From positions 174,501-238,500 of the forward strand of contig CP028514.1 of assembly GCA_003054495.1 (NCBI GenBank): DNA of 64,000 nucleotides. The letters run 5' to 3'. The position numbers were made by a program, and so were the translations under genes. The notes beneath the pieces are model-generated. The model did not search any database and was not told where the DNA came from. It saw only the letters and a list, made by a program, of their open reading frames with translations. Each line of letters begins with the position of its first letter. The stretch's first letter is position 1. This document shows, one piece after another, positions 6,975 through 32,903 of the stretch. This DNA comes from Carboxydocella thermautotrophica. Lineage in GTDB: Bacteria > Bacillota > GCA-003054495 > Carboxydocellales > Carboxydocellaceae.

Positions 6975-7301
6975 ATGTTTAAAGCAGCAATGCTGTTTAT
7001 TCTGGCCGGTCTGGCGGAAATCGGGGGCGGCTATCTGGTCTGGCTGGCCTTGCGGGAGCAAAAGGGCTGGTTCTATGGAATCGCCGGGGCGACTATCCTC
7101 ATTCTCTACGGTATTCTCCCCACCCTGCAGGAGTTTCCTTCCTTCGGGCGGGTTTACGCCGCTTACGGTGGTGTATTTATCGCCCTTTCGCTGCTCTGGG
7201 GCTGGGGGATTGATGGCAGACAGCCCGATTTCTGGGATGGGCTGGGTGCGGCCATAGCATTGCTAGGAGCTGGTATTATCCTCTATGCACCCCGGGGTTA
7301 A
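6975..7301 (+). CDS. YnfA/UPF0060 family small membrane protein
   Basis: A 108-residue protein with four predicted membrane helices and the family pattern [16 protein letters not shown] near the N-terminus, then [21 protein letters not shown]0060 proteins resemble small multidrug-resistance (SMR) subunits, but their substrate is not established. The start at 6975 is chosen because GAGAGGTGAAGG lies just upstream and the sequence begins like other family members; a longer frame upstream overlaps the nrf terminator. It appears to be a single-gene unit between the nrf terminator and the yerC promoter. Confidence 0.9.
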
Positions 7302-7311
7302 TCCCCCTTGT

Positions 7312-7327
7312 CTTTAACTAATTAAAA
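7312..7327 (+). promoter_or_regulatory. Candidate HisR/YerC operator upstream of yerC-hisZ
   Basis: CTTTAACTAATTAAAA. The core TTTAACTAATTAAA is a near-palindrome (12 of 14 positions agree with its reverse complement) and differs by one base from the motif before hisG at 11133. It lies 10 bp upstream of the predicted -35. Confidence 0.6.
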
Positions 7328-7337
7328 CACTAATATA

Positions 7338-7366
7338 TTGCAGAAGCGATGAGAATGGCGTATAAT
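7338..7366 (+). promoter_or_regulatory. Sigma-A-type promoter of yerC-hisZ
   Basis: -35 TTGCAG (7338-7343), 17-bp spacer, perfect -10 TATAAT (7361-7366). The yerC start is 32 bp downstream, with AAGGAGGGGG as ribosome site. Confidence 0.75.
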
Positions 7367-7398
7367 GGCAGGTGAACAGGCAGTGAAGGAGGGGGACC

Positions 7399-7704
7399 AT
7401 GAACTATCGGTCCAAACTGGAACATCCACTGGTTGACCGGCTGTTTGACGCCATTTTGTTATTGCAAAACCGGGAGGAGTGCTATCGGTTTTTTGAGGAT
7501 ATCTGTACGGTGGCGGAAATCCAGGCCCTGGCCCAGCGCCTGGAGGTGGCCAGATTGCTGGAAGCCAATGCCACTTACGGGGAAATTGCGGAACAGACCG
7601 GGGCCAGCAGTGCCACTATCAGCCGGGTCAAACGGGCCCTCTATTACGGTGCTGATGGTTATAAGCTGATTTTGCGCCGTCTGGCCGAGGAGAAAGGGGA
7701 ATAG
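7399..7704 (+). CDS. yerC: TrpR-related YerC/YecD regulator, probable histidine-regulon repressor (HisR-like)
   Basis: A 101-residue all-helical protein of the TrpR-like YerC/YecD family. The N-terminal dimerisation helices are followed by a helix-turn-helix at about 58-80 (YGEIAEQTGASSATISRVKR). From memory of comparative genomics, this family is proposed as a histidine biosynthesis repressor (HisR) in Gram-positives. The context agrees: hisZ follows after 2 bp, and the same near-palindrome lies in front of this gene and in front of hisG. It would repress both units and itself; the ligand, presumably histidine, is inferred. Confidence 0.85.
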   Translation: MNYRSKLEHPLVDRLFDAILLLQNREECYRFFEDICTVAEIQALAQRLEVARLLEANATYGEIAEQTGASSATISRVKRALYYGADGYKLILRRLAEEKGE

Positions 7705-7706
7705 AG

Positions 7707-8783
7707 ATGGAGAAAGAAAAATTCTGGCGCATACCGGCAGGAGTGCGAGACTGGTTGCCGGGGGAAAGAGCCAGCCGCAGGCAGCTGGAGGAGGTTATGA
7801 CCCGGACTTTTGCCCTCTGGGGTTATCGGGAGGTGGCCACTCCCACCCTGGAATACTGGGATAGCATCAGCCTGGGCCTAAATGATGAGGGCAGGGAAGT
7901 CATCAAGTTAATTGACCGCAATGGCGATATTCTGGCCCTGCGGCCGGACTGGACCACTCCAATTGCGCGGCTGACGGCCAGTCGCCTGGCCCAGTGGCCC
8001 TTGCCCCTGCGCCTTTTTTACAGTGGCCAGGTTTTTACCCAGGTAGAACCGCAGGTAGGGCGCTGGCGGGAGTACGGCCAGGCCGGGGTGGAGTTGATCG
8101 GCTTGCCGGGAGGCTGGGCTGATGGGGAAGTAGTGGCCCTGGCTGCTGAAAGCCTGCTGGCCGCCGGCTTAAAGGAATTTCAACTGCATCTGGGACACAT
8201 GGGATTACTGCAGGGTCTGATGGCTGAACAGGGCCTGACTCCTGAACAGGAGAGGGAAGTGAAAGCCGCTGTGTCCAGAAAAGACCTGGTGCGGGCGGAA
8301 CAGCTGCTGGGTCGGGGAGCGGAACTGCTGACCCTGCGGGGAGGCCGGGAGATGCTGGTGCGGGCAGAGCAACTGACCAGGGGACCGGAAGCGGCTCAGG
8401 CTCTGGCCGAGCTGGGGGAAACCATGGACTACCTGGAGGCTTATGGCCTGGCGGAACGGATTGTCCTGGACTTCAGCCTGCTCAGAGGGCTGGATTATTA
8501 TACCGGTGTAATTTTTGAAGGCTTTGCCCCCGGCCTGGGCTTCTCCCTTTGCGGAGGCGGCCGTTATGATGGGCTGCTGGCCCGCTTCGGGCAGCCGTTA
8601 CCTGCTACTGGCTTTGCCATAGGCTATGAACGGCTGCTCCTGGCTCTGGAACGGCAGGGAGTAAATAGACAGGGGATGGATACCGAGGTACGGTTACAGC
8701 GGAGGGAAAAGAACTGGACAGAAGTGCTGGCTGAGGCCAGAAGGCGCCGGGCAGCAGGGGAGATAGTGATAGTGGAGGGATAA
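7707..8783 (+). CDS. hisZ: ATP phosphoribosyltransferase regulatory subunit HisZ
   Basis: A 358-residue histidyl-tRNA-synthetase-like protein that lacks aminoacylation function and forms the regulatory half of the HisG/HisZ enzyme. Class II synthetase core motifs are recognisable: the GVRDWLPGE opening, RPDWTTPIARL, RGLDYYTGVIFEG and GGGRYDGLLARFG. Total length is well below a true HisRS (about 420) because the anticodon domain is missing. The short-form hisG at 11161 needs such a partner. The gene is unusual in being separated from hisG by an Agr-like cassette; agrB starts 3 bp after its stop. Confidence 0.95.
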   Translation: MEKEKFWRIPAGVRDWLPGERASRRQLEEVMTRTFALWGYREVATPTLEYWDSISLGLNDEGREVIKLIDRNGDILALRPDWTTPIARLTASRLAQWPLPLRLFYSGQVFTQVEPQVGRWREYGQAGVELIGLPGGWADGEVVALAAESLLAAGLKEFQLHLGHMGLLQGLMAEQGLTPEQEREVKAAVSRKDLVRAEQLLGRGAELLTLRGGREMLVRAEQLTRGPEAAQALAELGETMDYLEAYGLAERIVLDFSLLRGLDYYTGVIFEGFAPGLGFSLCGGGRYDGLLARFGQPLPATGFAIGYERLLLALERQGVNRQGMDTEVRLQRREKNWTEVLAEARRRRAAGEIVIVEG

Positions 8784-8786
8784 ACT

Positions 8787-9362
8787 ATGCTCAAGAAAAT
8801 GGCAGCCTGGTTGGCCACCAGTCAGGGCCTATCGGCAGAGGACGAGGAAGTACTCCTTTACTCCTTGACCATCCTTACCACTACCCTCGGTAATATTCTG
8901 GGCCTGGCCCTGCTGGCCTGGCTGCTGGACACCGGGTGGGAAACCATGGCAGTAACCCTGCCTGCAGTTACCCTGCGCATGTGGGCCGGAGGTGGCCATG
9001 CCACTGCCCCCTGGCGCTGCGTTATGGTAGGAACTACCGTAATGGCTCTGCTGGCCTGGCTAACCCGGACGGCCTCCTACTGGTTGGAGCCGGTTGTGCC
9101 TGTGCTGGTAATACTGGCTGCCCTAATTACCTGGCGTTATGCTCCGGCGCCGGCCCCCAATAAGCCGCTGAGCAGCCGGCAACAGGCGGATAAACTGCGT
9201 CGACGGGCTTTGATTACCCTGACCTTCTGGGCGATTATCATCTTCTTGTTCTGGTTGCTGGCAGTACCGGCCTGGTTGACAGCAGGGATGGCTTTAGGTC
9301 TGTTCTGGCAGGGGTTAACGGTAGTGCCTCCTGTTTATCACTGGCTGGGCAAATATTTTTAG
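8787..9362 (+). CDS. agrB: AgrB-type peptide-processing membrane protease
   Basis: A 191-residue multi-pass membrane protein of the accessory gene regulator B family. These cysteine endopeptidases cut the C-terminal tail off AgrD and cyclise it. The catalytic pair is present as RMWAGGGHATAPWRC, with His71 and Cys78 seven residues apart, as for His77 and Cys84 of S. aureus AgrB. The NKPLS motif typical of the family follows near residue 130. It starts 3 bp after hisZ, so it may be transcribed from the yerC promoter, while its substrate gene agrD has its own promoter downstream. Confidence 0.92.
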   Translation: MLKKMAAWLATSQGLSAEDEEVLLYSLTILTTTLGNILGLALLAWLLDTGWETMAVTLPAVTLRMWAGGGHATAPWRCVMVGTTVMALLAWLTRTASYWLEPVVPVLVILAALITWRYAPAPAPNKPLSSRQQADKLRRRALITLTFWAIIIFLFWLLAVPAWLTAGMALGLFWQGLTVVPPVYHWLGKYF

Positions 9363-9368
9363 ATACCA

Positions 9369-9398
9369 GCAGGATTTTTGCTATATTTTGTCGAAAAT
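9369..9398 (+). promoter_or_regulatory. Sigma-H-type promoter for agrD
   Basis: -35 GCAGGATTT (9369-9377), 12-bp spacer, -10 GTCGAAAAT (9390-9398). The agrD start is 59 bp downstream. The -10 has GAAA where the consensus is GAAT. It would let the peptide gene be induced apart from the histidine promoter. Confidence 0.65.
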
Positions 9399-9457
9399 GC
9401 ATCTAGAGAGTATAAATAGCGACAGCCCGGCCCCTGTTTCGAGGAGGCGATGGACCC

Positions 9458-9580
9458 ATGTTGAAGCGGATCTTGAGCGGGTTGGTTAATGTGCTGTTGT
9501 TGCTGGCACAGGCTAATGTGGATATAACCAGTAGTCTGTTTGTCTATGAACCCGAAGTGCCGAAAAAATTGAGGAAATAG
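9458..9580 (+). CDS. agrD: AgrD-like cyclic lactone autoinducer precursor with serine in place of cysteine
   Basis: A 40-residue precursor. The N-terminus (MLKRILSGLVNVLLLLAQA) is an amphipathic membrane-binding helix. The core TSSLFVY is followed by the acidic recognition tail EPEVPKKLRK, closely matching the tail of staphylococcal AgrD. In the usual layout the ring residue is Cys five positions before the tail; here it is Ser (SLFVY), which would give a true lactone rather than a thiolactone. The start is preceded by GAGGAGG with 8-9 base spacing; an ATG eight bases earlier opens only four codons. It lies downstream of agrB and upstream of the kinase genes. Confidence 0.88.
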   Translation: MLKRILSGLVNVLLLLAQANVDITSSLFVYEPEVPKKLRK

Positions 9581-9633
9581 GGCGGGTTTCTTGGGCTGTC
9601 GCTATTTTAAAAATAAACAAGAAGAGGGAGAAA

Positions 9634-10119
9634 ATGCAGTTACAGGTTTTGTTACTATCCTGGTGGCCGGCCATGGCAGCCTATTTGTTATTGTTTACTA
9701 CCTTGCTGGGCAAGCGGGGAACATTGCTACAGGTACTGGGGTTGGGCCTGGTGCTGGCGCTGGCAGATGGTGTTGTTGCTGCCCTGGTTAAACAGGCGGG
9801 CCTTCCTTATGGTTTGCATATTCCTGTTTCTTTGGCCTTGATGGCTTTAGGGGGCAGCATTGTTTGGAGGCGTATCTGGTTTAGCCTGGTTGTGGCAATA
9901 TTAAGCTATCTAACCATGATAGTTATTGACATTTTTACCGGAATACTGGTTGTAAAAATCTTAAATCAACAAAATTTTTTACAAAAAGCTTTAAATGACT
10001 GGCGTTTAATGATTTTAGTTGGCCAGTTACAAATGATTCCTGTTTATCTGGCTGCCTGGTGGACTGGACGCCGACGGATAGTCTGGTTTGACCTGTACCA
10101 GCGCAGGATTCGTGGATAA
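9634..10119 (+). CDS. Multi-pass membrane protein, possible detached AgrC sensor domain
   Basis: A 161-residue protein with about five hydrophobic segments (roughly 5-25, 30-52, 60-80, 82-105 and 125-145) and a basic C-terminus (GRRRIVWFDLYQRRIRG). No catalytic motif is visible. Placed between agrD and a histidine kinase, and with the size and loop pattern of the membrane half of AgrC receptors, it may be the peptide-sensing part encoded separately. That function is inference; an immunity or export role is possible. It begins 53 bp after agrD, with AGAGGGAGA as ribosome site, and ends 15 bp before the kinase. Confidence 0.75.
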   Translation: MQLQVLLLSWWPAMAAYLLLFTTLLGKRGTLLQVLGLGLVLALADGVVAALVKQAGLPYGLHIPVSLALMALGGSIVWRRIWFSLVVAILSYLTMIVIDIFTGILVVKILNQQNFLQKALNDWRLMILVGQLQMIPVYLAAWWTGRRRIVWFDLYQRRIRG

Positions 10120-10134
10120 AAGGATGGGGGAGAA

Positions 10135-11055
10135 ATGCCTTCCAGACAAATCAGCCGCAAAGTGGCTTTTTTGATCGCTAATATTCTCTTGCAAGGTTGG
10201 CTCTTCTTATTGCTGGTAACTTTACAGCTATTTTGGCGACACGAGACTCGCTGGAGTTTGTTACTGAGAAGTGATAGCTTGCTCATCACCATCGGACTCC
10301 TGGGGGTCTTTTGCGCTATTTTGGGGGTATTCATGGTCAGGGAAATCATCCGTATGGCTGATGTGGAAGAAGAAGCCAGACTGCAGGCTCTGCAACTGGA
10401 AGAGGCCAAAGAGTTTAATGCTACTTTAAGTGCTTATCGTCACGATTTCCTCAATCACCTCCAGGTCATCGGGGGCTTGATTCAACTGGGCAAGCCTCAG
10501 GATGCATACGAATACCTGGCGGAAATCACTGCCCAGTTGATCGGGGCCAATAAAAACCGGCTGGTCAGTCAGCCGGAGGTAGAAGCCCTGTTGTGGAAGA
10601 AGAAGGCACTGGCCGAGGAAAAAGGGATACGGTTACAGTTCAATATCCGCTCCAATCTGGGTCAGGCGGAAATCAGCGGTCTGGATCTGGCCCGCATCCT
10701 GGGCAATCTGCTGGATAATGCCATTTATGCTGTCAAGGATTTGTTGCCCCGGGACCGGATAGTTACTGTAAGCATCGAGGAACTGGAAGAAGGCTTTCGC
10801 CTGGCGGTACATAACTGGGGGCCCCCTATCCCCGTCAAACTGCAAAGACTAATCTTTGAGCGGGGTTTCACTACCAAAGGGGCTGAAGGCAATGGTCTGG
10901 GACTGGATATAGTAGCCACTCTGGTTCAGAAGAATCGCGGAAAAATCAACCTGGTCAGCACCGAAGCGGAGGGAACCACTTTTACTGTCTGGTTGCCCCG
11001 CCGGGACGGGAATCTGGCGGTTACCATTTGGGCTGGACCGGGCTTATGGCTCTAG
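10135..11055 (+). CDS. Sensor histidine kinase with Spo0B/AgrC-type histidine box
   Basis: A 306-residue kinase with two N-terminal membrane helices (about 9-32 and 48-69), a short linker, a dimerisation helix with YRHDFLNHLQVIGGL (phospho-acceptor His103) and a GHKL ATPase with N-box NLLDNAIYA (191-199) and G-box GNGLGLDIV (253-261). RHDxxNH boxes are typical of AgrC and of Spo0B/CitA-type kinases. It has no large extracellular domain of its own, which fits sensing through the preceding membrane protein. No response regulator is encoded nearby, so its target is unknown. A terminator follows directly. Confidence 0.9.
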   Translation: MPSRQISRKVAFLIANILLQGWLFLLLVTLQLFWRHETRWSLLLRSDSLLITIGLLGVFCAILGVFMVREIIRMADVEEEARLQALQLEEAKEFNATLSAYRHDFLNHLQVIGGLIQLGKPQDAYEYLAEITAQLIGANKNRLVSQPEVEALLWKKKALAEEKGIRLQFNIRSNLGQAEISGLDLARILGNLLDNAIYAVKDLLPRDRIVTVSIEELEEGFRLAVHNWGPPIPVKLQRLIFERGFTTKGAEGNGLGLDIVATLVQKNRGKINLVSTEAEGTTFTVWLPRRDGNLAVTIWAGPGLWL

Positions 11056-11088
11056 CGCCTGATGCAAATCCGGCGCTTATTTTTTTAT
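11054..11088 (+). terminator. Intrinsic terminator after the Agr-like kinase
   Basis: AGCGCC (11054-11059) pairs with GGCGCT (11072-11077), followed by a T-rich run. It separates the peptide cassette from the hisG promoter. Confidence 0.75.
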
Positions 11089-11117
11089 TGACTTTTTCTC
11101 CATTACCATGATAGTAT
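11088..11117 (+). promoter_or_regulatory. Sigma-A-type promoter of the hisG operon
   Basis: -35 TTGACT (11088-11093), 18-bp spacer, -10 TAGTAT (11112-11117). The candidate operator at 11133 lies just after the expected transcription start, a suitable place for repression. Confidence 0.65.
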
Positions 11118-11132
11118 ATTAGTAAATCATCA

Positions 11133-11148
11133 CTTTAACTAACTAAAG
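11133..11148 (+). promoter_or_regulatory. Candidate HisR/YerC operator before hisG
   Basis: CTTTAACTAACTAAAG. The core differs by one base from the motif at 7312 in front of yerC-hisZ. The overall shape is a loose palindrome. It ends 12 bp before the hisG start codon. Confidence 0.62.
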
Positions 11149-11160
11149 AGGAGAAGGGCT

Positions 11161-11832
11161 ATGTTCAGTAAAAATAACGATTTCTTAACCGTTGCCCTGC
11201 CCAAGGGGGCTTTGTTTGCGGAGGCGGTGGAGTTGCTGGGCCGCTGTGGCTTAAATACAGACCAGTTGCTGGGGGACAGCCGCAAGCTCTTTTTTACTGA
11301 TGCGGAACAGGAAGTTAATTACCTCATTTGCCGGCCCACGGATATTCCTACCTTTGTGGAATACGGAGCAGCGGATCTGGGGATAGTGGGGAAAGATACC
11401 ATTGCCGAACAGGGCAAGGATGTTTATGAGTTGCTGGATTTGAAATTCGGTTTTTGCCGTTTTGTGGTAGCGGCTCCTAAGGCGCTCACTCCCATAACCG
11501 ATTGGTCGCAATGGGCGGCAGCCCGGGTAGCCACCAAGTTTCCCCGGGTGGCGGAACAGTTTTTCCAGAGCAAAGGTTTGCAGATGGAAATTATCAAGCT
11601 GCATGGCAATATCGAGCTGGCTCCCCTGGTGGGGCTGGCGGACTTGATTGTGGATCTGGTTTCTACCGGTCGTACTTTGCGGGAAAACAATCTGGCGGAA
11701 GTGGAGGAGATTTTTCCGGTTACCGCTCGCCTGATTGCCAACCGGGTCAATCTGCGCATCAAGGATAGGCGGATCGGGCCGTTACTGGAAAAGCTGAAAT
11801 TCCATACCAGCCAGCGGCACAGTGATTGTTGA
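11161..11832 (+). CDS. hisG: ATP phosphoribosyltransferase catalytic subunit, short form
   Basis: A 223-residue HisG catalysing the first step of histidine synthesis, ATP plus PRPP to phosphoribosyl-ATP. It is the short form, without the C-terminal regulatory domain, and therefore needs HisZ (encoded at 7707). The VALPKGAL opening, the substrate-binding GAADLGIVGKD and the PRPP-loop-like DLIVDLVSTGRTLREN are visible. It is the first gene of an eight-gene operon ordered by pathway. GAGGAGAAGG serves as ribosome site. The enzyme is the usual feedback-inhibition point, acting through HisZ. Confidence 0.96.
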   Translation: MFSKNNDFLTVALPKGALFAEAVELLGRCGLNTDQLLGDSRKLFFTDAEQEVNYLICRPTDIPTFVEYGAADLGIVGKDTIAEQGKDVYELLDLKFGFCRFVVAAPKALTPITDWSQWAAARVATKFPRVAEQFFQSKGLQMEIIKLHGNIELAPLVGLADLIVDLVSTGRTLRENNLAEVEEIFPVTARLIANRVNLRIKDRRIGPLLEKLKFHTSQRHSDC

Positions 11833-11844
11833 GGAGGGACGAAG

Positions 11845-13152
11845 ATGGTGTTCAGGATTTTGCAAGCCGGTTCGGTAGAGGCAGAACGGCTGTTAATGAA
11901 GGAATATGGCGATCTGGCCTGTTATGAACAGGCAGTCAGGGAGATCCTGGCGGAAGTCAAATGTCGAGGAGATGAGGCGGTACTGGCCTACACGGCCCGC
12001 TTTGACGGGGTAGAGCTAACAGCAGCCACCATGCGCGTATCCGAGGCAGAGGTAGCTGAGGCTTATACCCGGGTGGATGAGGAGTTTCTGGCGGCCCTGC
12101 GCCTGGCCCGGGATAATATTAGTGCCTTTCACCAGAAACAGCTGCCCAAATCCTGGGCAGAACCAGACCAAAAGGGGAATGTGCTGGGCCAGCTGGTAAG
12201 GCCCCTGGAGCGGGTAGGAATTTATGTCCCGGGGGGGACTGCCGATTATCCCTCCTCAGTGCTAATGAATGCCATTCCTGCCCGGGTAGCAGGGGTAAAG
12301 GAGATTGTTATGGTGGCTCCACCCAGGCGGGATGGACGTTTGAGTCCCTATACCCTGGTGGCGGCCCGGGAGGCAGGAGTGACGGAAATCTATAAAATCG
12401 GGGGAGCGCAGGCTATCGCTGCCCTGGCCTTTGGCACCGAAACCATCCGGAAGGTGGACCTGATTACCGGTCCGGGCAATATCTATGTTACCCTGGCCAA
12501 GAAGGAAGTCTATGGCCGGGTCAATATCGACATGCTGGCCGGGCCCAGTGAAATCCTGATTATCGCTGATGAGACTGCCAATCCTCGTTATCTGGCAGCT
12601 GACCTTCTATCCCAGGCTGAACATGATGTGCTGGCTTCCTCAGTGTTGCTCACCCCCAGCCGGGAGCTGGCAGAAGCGGTAGCTGGGGAAGTGGAAAAAC
12701 AGCTGCAGGCCCTGGAGAGACGGGAAATAGCGGCTAAAAGTCTGGTGTCTTACGGTGGGGCAATTATCACTGCTGATCTGGAGGAAGCGGTAGCACTGGC
12801 TAACCGCTATGCTCCTGAACACCTGGAATTGCAAGTGCAGGACCCCTGGCAATGGCTGGGCCGTATTCAGCATGCCGGTGCCATTTTTCTCGGACCCTAT
12901 ACACCGGAACCGGTAGGGGACTATCTGGCCGGGCCCAACCATGTGCTGCCGACTGGTGGTACCGCCCGTTTCTATTCCGCCCTTAATGTGGAGACATTTA
13001 TGAAGAAAACCAGCCTCCTTTCCTATACCGCCCGGGGTTTGAAAGCAGAAGGAGAGGCCATTGTCAAACTGGCTAATACAGAAGGATTGACCGCCCATGC
13101 CAGGGCAGTAGCGGTACGCCTGGAAGACCTGACAGAGGAGGGAGAGCAGTGA
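11845..13152 (+). CDS. hisD: Histidinol dehydrogenase
   Basis: A 435-residue zinc enzyme oxidising histidinol to histidine in two NAD-dependent steps, the last of the pathway. The signature LSQAEHDVLASSVLLT, the catalytic YAPEHLELQ and the GPNHVLPTGG motif are present. Length is normal. It begins 12 bp after hisG, and its TGA overlaps the GTG start of hisC by four bases, so translation is coupled. Confidence 0.97.
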   Translation: MVFRILQAGSVEAERLLMKEYGDLACYEQAVREILAEVKCRGDEAVLAYTARFDGVELTAATMRVSEAEVAEAYTRVDEEFLAALRLARDNISAFHQKQLPKSWAEPDQKGNVLGQLVRPLERVGIYVPGGTADYPSSVLMNAIPARVAGVKEIVMVAPPRRDGRLSPYTLVAAREAGVTEIYKIGGAQAIAALAFGTETIRKVDLITGPGNIYVTLAKKEVYGRVNIDMLAGPSEILIIADETANPRYLAADLLSQAEHDVLASSVLLTPSRELAEAVAGEVEKQLQALERREIAAKSLVSYGGAIITADLEEAVALANRYAPEHLELQVQDPWQWLGRIQHAGAIFLGPYTPEPVGDYLAGPNHVLPTGGTARFYSALNVETFMKKTSLLSYTARGLKAEGEAIVKLANTEGLTAHARAVAVRLEDLTEEGEQ

Positions 13153-31292: not shown

Positions 31293-32903
31293 ATGAAGTG
31301 GTTTAAGAAGCAGTTTTATAAAAAGAAAATAGCATTTATTATTTCAATCATGTTGATTATGGTTCTAATCTTTACCGGGTGCAGTAGTACAACACAAACC
31401 AAACAAGCTCAGGATGTAAATTCTTCAACCAAAATAGATACTTATACCATAGCTGACCCTACTGGAGACTGGGGCTATCCCACTCCTTACAGCCACTACC
31501 AGCGGGGGCCTGGTTATGTCAGGATGAGTTTTATCTTTGATACCCTTGTATGGAAAGACGAAAAGGGTTACATACCGGCCCTGGCTAAAAAATGGGAATA
31601 TATCGAAGGAGAAAATGCTTACTACTTTGAGCTCAATGAAAAAGCGAAGTGGCATGACGGGCAGAAATTCACCGCCAGGGATGTAGCTTTCACCTTTGAT
31701 TATACCAGGGAACATCCCTATGCCTGGGTTGATACTACCAAAATAGACAGGGTAGAAATCATTGACGACTACAAGGTAAAGATCTATCTCAGGGAAAAAT
31801 ACGCTCCTTTCTTAAATAACGTAGCCGGAACGATGCCGATAATACCGGAGCACATCTGGAAACAGGTCGAAAAACCCGAAGAATTTCAAGGACCTGAAGC
31901 GGTAATAGGTACCGGACCTTTTAAACTGGCGGATTACAACAAAGAACAGGGGACTTACCTGTACGAGGCCAACCGGAACTATTATTTGGGCAGTCCGCGA
32001 GTGGAAAAACTTAAATTTGTTAAAGTCAGTAATGAAATGGCGGCAGCCGCTTTGGAGAGAGGAGAGGTTAATTTTGCCCAGATTCCACCGGAACTGAAAG
32101 ACGAAGTGGCCAATAAGGGGCTGTCAGTAATAGAGGCACAATCCGATTGGGCTCTGAAACTGTTATTCAACCATCAGAAGGAACCTTTTTCGGCCAGGGA
32201 ATTCCGGCAGGCTTTGGCTTATGCCATTGACTGCGAACAAATGGTAAAAACAACCAGGAGAGGGTATGCCCTGGCGGGTAAACCGGGTCTCCTTTCCCCT
32301 GATTCAGAATGGTATAACCCCAATGTAAAAAAATATGATTATAACCCGGAAAAAGCGAAGGAGTTATTAAGAGGGCTTGGATATGAATTGAAAAACGGCT
32401 ATTTTGTCAAAAACGGGCAGGAGTTAACCCTTGAGCTGCTATGCAGCCCCGACTATGAAAGAGACGGGCAGTTTATCAAACAGCAGTTGGAAAAAGTGGG
32501 AATCAAGGTTAACCTGAAAAGTCTGGAAGCCAAAACTCTTGACTCCATGGTGCAGGACTGGAAATTCGATATGGCCCTGTCCGGACACGGAGGACTGGGG
32601 GGCGATGCCGAGATTTTAAACAAGGTGATCATAGGCAAAGGGGTTACCAGTACAAGATATACTGATAGCAAGATTTTAACCGGTCTGCTGAAGGAACAGG
32701 TTGCGTTTATGAATCCCGACGAGCGCAAAGCAAAAGTGGAAAAAATCCAGGAGCTTTATGCAGAGGAAATGCCTGCTCTAACCCTGTATTATCCGGACTG
32801 GTATTACGGCTACGACGGAAAAATCAGGCTGTTTAATACAAAGAAAGGAATCGGTTCTGGAGTGCCCCTGCCGTTAAATAAATGGGCTTTTGTGCGCCAG
32901 TAG
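31293..32903 (+). CDS. ABC transporter substrate-binding lipoprotein, peptide/nickel family 5
   Basis: A 536-residue SBP_bac_5 protein. The N-terminus is a lipoprotein signal with lipobox FTGC (Cys about 29). The body shows the family markers WHDGQKFTARDVAFTFDY, GTGPFKL and AREFRQALAYAIDCEQMV. Ligand cannot be told from sequence: family members bind oligopeptides, nickel chelates or other small molecules. The start at 31293 has GGAGGAGG upstream. Linkage to two FmdE-like genes and a methyltransferase remnant suggests a metal chelate or cofactor-like substrate, as inference. Confidence 0.9.
   Translation: MKWFKKQFYKKKIAFIISIMLIMVLIFTGCSSTTQTKQAQDVNSSTKIDTYTIADPTGDWGYPTPYSHYQRGPGYVRMSFIFDTLVWKDEKGYIPALAKKWEYIEGENAYYFELNEKAKWHDGQKFTARDVAFTFDYTREHPYAWVDTTKIDRVEIIDDYKVKIYLREKYAPFLNNVAGTMPIIPEHIWKQVEKPEEFQGPEAVIGTGPFKLADYNKEQGTYLYEANRNYYLGSPRVEKLKFVKVSNEMAAAALERGEVNFAQIPPELKDEVANKGLSVIEAQSDWALKLLFNHQKEPFSAREFRQALAYAIDCEQMVKTTRRGYALAGKPGLLSPDSEWYNPNVKKYDYNPEKAKELLRGLGYELKNGYFVKNGQELTLELLCSPDYERDGQFIKQQLEKVGIKVNLKSLEAKTLDSMVQDWKFDMALSGHGGLGGDAEILNKVIIGKGVTSTRYTDSKILTGLLKEQVAFMNPDERKAKVEKIQELYAEEMPALTLYYPDWYYGYDGKIRLFNTKKGIGSGVPLPLNKWAFVRQ

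Follow-up and report, generated by a model that had tools for sequence, protein, structure and literature searches.

How an Agr peptide is received, and where its signal goes, is the question raised by a cassette that encodes AgrB and AgrD together with a short histidine kinase and a separate small membrane protein, all without AgrA. The staphylococcal receptor is a single-chain AgrC. The cassette lies in the genome of Carboxydocella thermautotrophica 41T, a heat-loving, spore-forming bacterium. The window, i.e., the whole 64-kb stretch of DNA analyzed, corresponds to G000:C1:174501-238500. The genes are referred to as agrB, agrD, M and K in the following.

7707–8783, + strand: hisZ, ATP phosphoribosyltransferase regulatory subunit (TIGR00443, 318.7 bits, above cut-off), 3 bp upstream of agrB
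8787–9362, + strand: agrB, membrane peptidase processing AgrD (PF04647, 118 bits, cut-off 23), with His71 and Cys78
9458–9580, + strand: agrD, 40-residue pro-peptide (TIGR04223, 43.4 bits, cut-off 19)
9634–10119, + strand: M, 161-residue protein for which five membrane helices are predicted; candidate for the AIP-sensing half of a split AgrC
10135–11055, + strand: K, 306-residue histidine kinase (SPOB_a 58.8 bits, HATPase_c 69.4 bits), proposed C-terminal half of a split AgrC
11053–11079, + strand: terminator-like hairpin AGCGCC..GGCGCT followed by a T-rich tract at the cassette end, read from the sequence
11088–11117, + strand: promoter-like site of hisG (the number of such matches is near chance)
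11161–11832, + strand: hisG (TIGR00070, 218.6 bits), downstream neighbour 105 bp 3' of the cassette

The four genes follow one another on the + strand between hisZ and hisG (8787–11055). The initial annotation had described this order, with a 40-residue agrD at 9458, a 161-residue membrane protein and a 306-residue kinase, and it had named His71 and Cys78 in AgrB, its catalytic pair; all of this we found as described. This AgrB is the only one in the genome, and its His and Cys are invariant across 30 aligned relatives. At the cassette end, the hairpin region (11045–11085) had a local folding energy of −13.5 kcal/mol. hisG is probably transcribed separately, since it has its own promoter-like site. 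An Rfam search of 7000–12000 gave no match. The annotated absence of a nearby response regulator also held: none of the genome's 27 receiver domain matches falls into the 64-kb window, the closest being located at 139734 and 315070. The operon hence lacks the LytTR regulator AgrA that defines agrBDCA.

K has the features of a SPOB_a/DcuS-type histidine kinase, i.e., a SPOB_a H-box with the motif H103-D104-F105-x-N107-H and a HATPase_c domain with N-box and G2. Its full HATPase_c domain distinguishes it from a Spo0B phosphotransferase. The catalytic core scored 98.9 bits to DcuS/MalK. On the NCBIfam model of AgrC (NF046015, 414 positions), K aligned from position 168 to 396 only and, taken as a single chain, reached 47.9 bits of the 500 bits set as equivalog cut-off; the fused relatives described below reached 58–67 bits. 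The structure model of K contains the two membrane helices claimed earlier, the second being continuous with the phosphorylation helix. They are joined by a loop of about nine residues, and the model has no extracellular domain.

No Pfam or NCBIfam family was found for M, whether alone or in 45 relatives. Its model (pLDDT 91, 20 sequences) consists of five long helical stretches. This fold had no match in the PDB (best E 2.8) and weak matches only among viral models, and a PDB sequence search with M returned nothing credible. Standalone M scored near zero against AgrC, with 3 of 45 members matching (best E 0.0014).

In 15 kinases of our survey, M and K form a single chain. Such a chain is found in G001, a genome of the same order, where the gene next to agrB-agrD encodes a protein of 471 residues that aligns with M at its N-terminus and with K at its C-terminus. 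In this protein (L049), residues 66–425 align to AgrC positions 34–395. Two further fusions are similarly colinear with AgrC, i.e., L041 (448 residues; 23–420 on AgrC 12–395 of 414) and L077 (48–434 on AgrC 17–396). In a fourth, L095, the AgrC match begins only at position 116. Three fused proteins thus run nearly full-length on AgrC while K aligns only from position 168, which places the cut between the fifth and the last two membrane helices. M and K together are therefore likely an AgrC whose chain is interrupted ahead of the final two membrane helices. Evidence that M itself is homologous to the AgrC sensor comes mainly from these three fused proteins, because standalone M scores near zero and the match of L095 starts at 116. 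By score, the system of the window is outside the AgrC equivalog, yet it is built like AgrC, with a multi-helix membrane sensor and a kinase, and it probably works like AgrC. The earlier suggestion that the separate membrane protein is the sensor is accordingly backed by natural M-K fusions and by their colinearity with AgrC.

In a phylogeny of 68 K domains, the label split or fused changed five times, and four of these changes were forced by strongly supported branches. Because at least four changes are forced, fusion or fission must have recurred. The fused protein of G001 (L049 6515-7930) has lost the phospho-accepting histidine motif, with QCDGF in place of RHDF; it may therefore be a pseudokinase or a phosphatase. 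Another genome, G058, carries a second K (L061 8416-9327).

We consider it probable that the locus as a whole is an Agr module with a two-polypeptide AgrC, a serine-lactone peptide, output through the Spo0 relay and feedback by Spo0A. AgrB would cut AgrD and close a serine-lactone ring of the sequence SSLFV. M would provide the N-terminal sensor bundle of AgrC with its five membrane helices. K would contribute the remaining two membrane helices together with the phosphorylation helix and the ATPase domain. Both proteins would assemble in the membrane, bind the peptide and thereby set kinase activity. With AgrA absent, the output of K would enter the Spo0F-Spo0B-Spo0A relay, and Spo0A would in turn regulate the agrD promoter by way of a Spo0A box. 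Computation shows the genes, the split of M and K with its natural fusions, their co-conservation, the Ser at the ring position, and the Spo0A box with its enrichment; closure of the ring, assembly of M with K, binding of the peptide, transfer of phosphate to Spo0F and the Spo0A feedback are steps that we infer.

The components for such an output are present. The genome encodes a Spo0A_C protein; an orphan Spo0F-like receiver lies next to fba, and a SPOB_a-only protein next to obg. We therefore assign it a full phosphorelay. Such a relay has been verified experimentally in Desulfotomaculum acetoxidans (PMC11210211). The Spo0F-like receiver beside fba (L119 1465-1845, G000 C1 at about 315 kb) reads LIVDVQ where Spo0F of B. 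subtilis has LIVDDQ, i.e., one residue of the acidic pocket is changed.

Upstream of agrD lie two overlapping elements, of which the promoter-like site was read directly from the sequence:

9387–9396, + strand: perfect Spo0A box TTTGTCGAAA, overlapping the −35 element of the promoter-like site of agrD
9388 (TTGTCG), 17-nucleotide spacer, 9411–9416 (TATAAA), + strand: promoter-like site of agrD

The Spo0A box consensus is general knowledge. The 64 kb contain two perfect matches to it compared with 0.47 expected, the other one being TTTGTCAAAA at 32403–32412. G002, the nearest relative with the same locus, which belongs to another family of the same order, carries TGTCGAAAA upstream of agrD; a box counted just upstream of agrD was found in the window and in G002 only. 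The heptamer TGTCGAA, the core of the Spo0A box, was present within 250 bp ahead of the agr operon in 27 of 115 loci, about 12-fold more often than the mean of 2.3 for 630 permuted 7-mers, none of which reached 27/115. Promoters of neighbouring genes had it in 12 of 306 cases (odds ratio 7.5, p = 1e-8, a value that overstates independence because the loci are related), and coding stretches showed no excess. The enrichment was strongest in agr operons without a linked kinase of the K type, most of which have c-di-GMP enzymes. Between operons without and with a response regulator there was a trend only (25/92 versus 2/23, Fisher p = 0.096). We rejected the box as a mark of regulator-less loci with the gene order of the window (B-D-M-K): it ranked top in a first set (8/30) and was then found in 0 of 7 new loci compared with 5 of 31 others. 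This failed class-specific claim leaves intact the general finding that the box is enriched ahead of the first operon gene. From these motif counts, Spo0A probably controls agr. The box bears on this step and not on the one from K to Spo0F, and that K feeds Spo0F we infer separately; the Spo0 relay is a plausible output of K.

The strongest competitor accepts the split AgrC and directs K to an unlinked regulator of the LytTR or CitB type rather than to the Spo0 relay. Related split kinases do adjoin LytTR regulators, and the genome has three LytTR and two CitB-like regulators. Each of these, however, adjoins a kinase of its own, those next to the three LytTR regulators being LytS-like, whereas Spo0F, which has no partner, is the obvious shared receiver. 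As Spo0A boxes are moreover enriched at agr operons, we regard an output through LytTR or CitB-type regulators as somewhat unlikely and retain the Spo0 relay.

M is closely tied to AgrB far beyond this genome. Across 399 genomes of the phylum, a profile of M and AgrB were found together in 147 genomes, M only in 11 and AgrB only in 18. Outside the genomes used for training the profile, the association remained (counts 110, 11, 18 and 224, p ~1e-59). Among the matches listed, at least 58 of 90 M genes were located 4 kb or less from an AgrB, and several others also adjoin AgrB. Most of 60-odd clostridial AgrB loci have M beside AgrB, be it split as M and K, fused to K in chains of 434–471 residues, or accompanied by larger partners. 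In Formimonas warabiya, K is followed by a second M gene within the cassette (L165 7284-7769). The M receptor piece is thus widespread in the peptide signalling of clostridia, where it has not yet been given a name, and it probably provides input to the decision to sporulate. Our literature search, largely confined to open papers, found no account of a split AgrC or of M, which leaves such absence unproven.

These partners permit a wider, more tentative reading that we hold to be possible: M may represent an unnamed family of five-helix sensors for Agr-type cyclic peptides, separately encoded, with interchangeable outputs across Clostridia and wired to Spo0A wherever a dedicated regulator is missing. 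The outputs meant here are split or fused SPOB_a-type kinases, PAS kinases and GGDEF/HD-GYP c-di-GMP enzymes. If true, M would connect clostridial Agr peptides to sporulation, a link missing so far, and would open a direct route from peptide to c-di-GMP. A GGDEF and HD-GYP protein of 550–580 residues with N-terminal membrane helices adjoins M and AgrB-AgrD in L045, L046, L055, L074 and some ten loci like them; this neighbourhood points to Agr peptides that control c-di-GMP. The Siphoviridae contig ctOSJ35 encodes an annotated AgrB and a protein with an M-like predicted fold (BFVD A0A8S5PKY4, A0A8S5PJW7; TM 0.62, weak E-value), so that phages may carry the M/AgrB module too, as far as predicted models indicate. 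A search of viral contigs for class I AgrB found none, and the window AgrB alone as query against genome contigs gave no match.

M could alternatively be a helper of peptide maturation or export, e.g., an N-terminal peptidase or a permease comparable to MroQ in S. aureus, with K alone sensing the peptide. This would fit the lack of a known fold match for M and its position next to AgrB in nearly all loci, even in those with GGDEF/HD-GYP outputs that have N-terminal membrane helices of their own. In many loci, however, the covalent fusion partner of M is the kinase and not AgrB, and the M-K pair is kept wherever the B-D pair lies, i.e., in B-D-M-K as well as in M-K-B-D order. K alone, with its short loop, has no extracellular domain, and M, with conserved R, P, G and H in a helix-linker motif, has no recognisable protease motif. 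We therefore consider a helper function of M unlikely and continue with M as the sensor half of AgrC.

The peptide itself was analyzed by comparison with 118 clostridial AgrDs encoded beside AgrB, whose common pattern x5-[Y/H]-[QE]-P sets the ring register. The residue five positions before [Y/H]-[QE]-P was Cys in 62, Ser in 45 and Thr in 9 of the 118. In the AgrD of the window, Ser25 is the equivalent of the ring Cys, so that this peptide is not of the thiolactone type; the predicted ring is SSLFV, followed by Y-EPEVP. In G002, the corresponding stretch is SVLFG-Y-EPEVP. The register SSLFV is favoured over SLFVY because G002 conserves the first, not the second, of the two Ser residues. Hence the serine in place of cysteine noted by the initial annotation stood, while the ring it had proposed, SLFVY, was one residue off. 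Judged from the sequence pattern, AgrD is predicted to give a five-residue serine-lactone ring, Ser25-Ser-Leu-Phe-Val. A five-residue ring is also present in the synthetic C. perfringens peptide 5R (PMC7492741).

Since Ser is a poorer nucleophile than Cys, the peptide might be linear or otherwise closed, and a Ser-containing AgrD was indeed not processed by the AgrB of S. aureus (PMC10482373). S. intermedius nevertheless makes a serine lactone, so this closure is known (PMC10482373), and the occurrence of Ser or Thr as ring residue in 54 of the 118 clostridial AgrDs encoded next to AgrB implies AgrBs suited to it. We thus find a peptide without lactone quite unlikely; the peptide of the window would be closed as a serine lactone. 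With Ser and Thr rings nearly as common as Cys rings, the expected chemistry of autoinducing peptides becomes broader.

agrD is moreover enclosed by a perfect 15-bp inverted repeat:

9414–9428, + strand: left arm
9593–9607, + strand: right arm

The enclosed RNA folds better than shuffled sequences (z = −3.2). G002 has a different perfect repeat of 14 bp in the same placement around agrD (L168 5798-5821 and 6003-6026), and perfect repeats of at least 11 bp surround agrD in 7 of 81 loci compared with 0.2 expected from swapped flanks. Pairing kept while the repeat sequence changed suggests an RNA stem, which perhaps protects or ends the agrD transcript. A long stem around agrD as a trait of one class of loci was rejected, as pairing energies were alike between classes (p = 0.12).

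We compared the cassette with more than 100 related agr loci. The initial annotation had proposed a search in related genomes for clusters of agrB, agrD, membrane protein and kinase lacking agrA. Such B-D-M-K loci without an adjoining response regulator recur in many genera, i.e., in Moorella stamsii, Thermincola ferriacetica, Formimonas, Geosporobacter, Alkaliphilus, Maledivibacter, Sporosalibacterium, Anaerophilus, Marinisporobacter and others, and carry Cys, Ser or Thr rings. In M-K-B-D loci, the kinases are often beside a LytTR regulator. In four families and two arrangements, the cassette lies in or beside the his operon (window 7707-11832; L033; L061; L169), with hisZ upstream in the window and in G002, and downstream in Thermincola and G058. 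The four genes are therefore co-conserved, which makes a chance assembly untenable, and the recurrence of B-D-M-K marks a standing variant and not local decay. Relatives with Cys and relatives with single-chain receptors, which had been named as a sign of decay, do exist, yet many genera have kept Ser/Thr rings and split receptors. A decaying remnant of agrBDCA with agrA lost and agrC broken in two is hardly credible: the lack of AgrA and the single-chain receptors of close relatives would fit it, but all catalytic residues are intact, AgrB is identical in another genome of the same species, and conservation of the same split and order across many families and long divergence largely refutes local decay. 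Of the departure from the standard agrBDCA plan claimed at the outset, the split receptor and the missing AgrA were borne out, whereas the plan is common in Clostridia and not peculiar to this genome.

How an Agr peptide promotes early sporulation in C. difficile was called unknown in a review (PMC11210211). M, conserved, unannotated, found with nearly every AgrB in the surveyed phylum and sometimes fused to a kinase, is a concrete receptor candidate. Searches for a classical AgrC could miss this receptor because it is encoded by two short genes, one of them without a family model.

The system is best filed as a variant of Agr signalling with a split AgrC, a hydroxyl-ring peptide and no AgrA. 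With agrBDCA of Staphylococcus, it shares the His/Cys pair of AgrB and an AgrD with leader, five-residue ring and acidic-Pro recognition tail, and with staphylococcal AgrC (NF046015) a receptor kinase whose membrane sensor has several helices and which, in fused relatives, is colinear with AgrC. It differs from agrBDCA by an AgrC in two chains, the absent AgrA, Ser for Cys and its placement at the his locus, and the core of K is closer to DcuS/MalK/SPOB_a than to AgrC. As in the Agr system of S. intermedius, Ser replaces the ring Cys; this is an exception among staphylococci (PMC10482373) and, together with Thr, common in the clade of the window. Clostridium autoethanogenum likewise has an agrD-agrC-agrB locus without agrA, i.e., without its own response regulator; as far as the accessible part of that report extends, AgrC-type kinase genes are described there and a separate membrane protein is not found (PMC8748961). 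Clostridium perfringens agrBD/VirS resembles the window in its five-residue ring and in signalling to a kinase not named AgrC. It differs in that the receptor VirS is encoded elsewhere, as a single chain and with VirR (PMC7492741). The catalytic core of K, SPOB_a plus HATPase_c, is that of the CitA/DcuS/MalK kinases; unlike these, K has no extracellular PAS domain, and its ligand input presumably comes from M.
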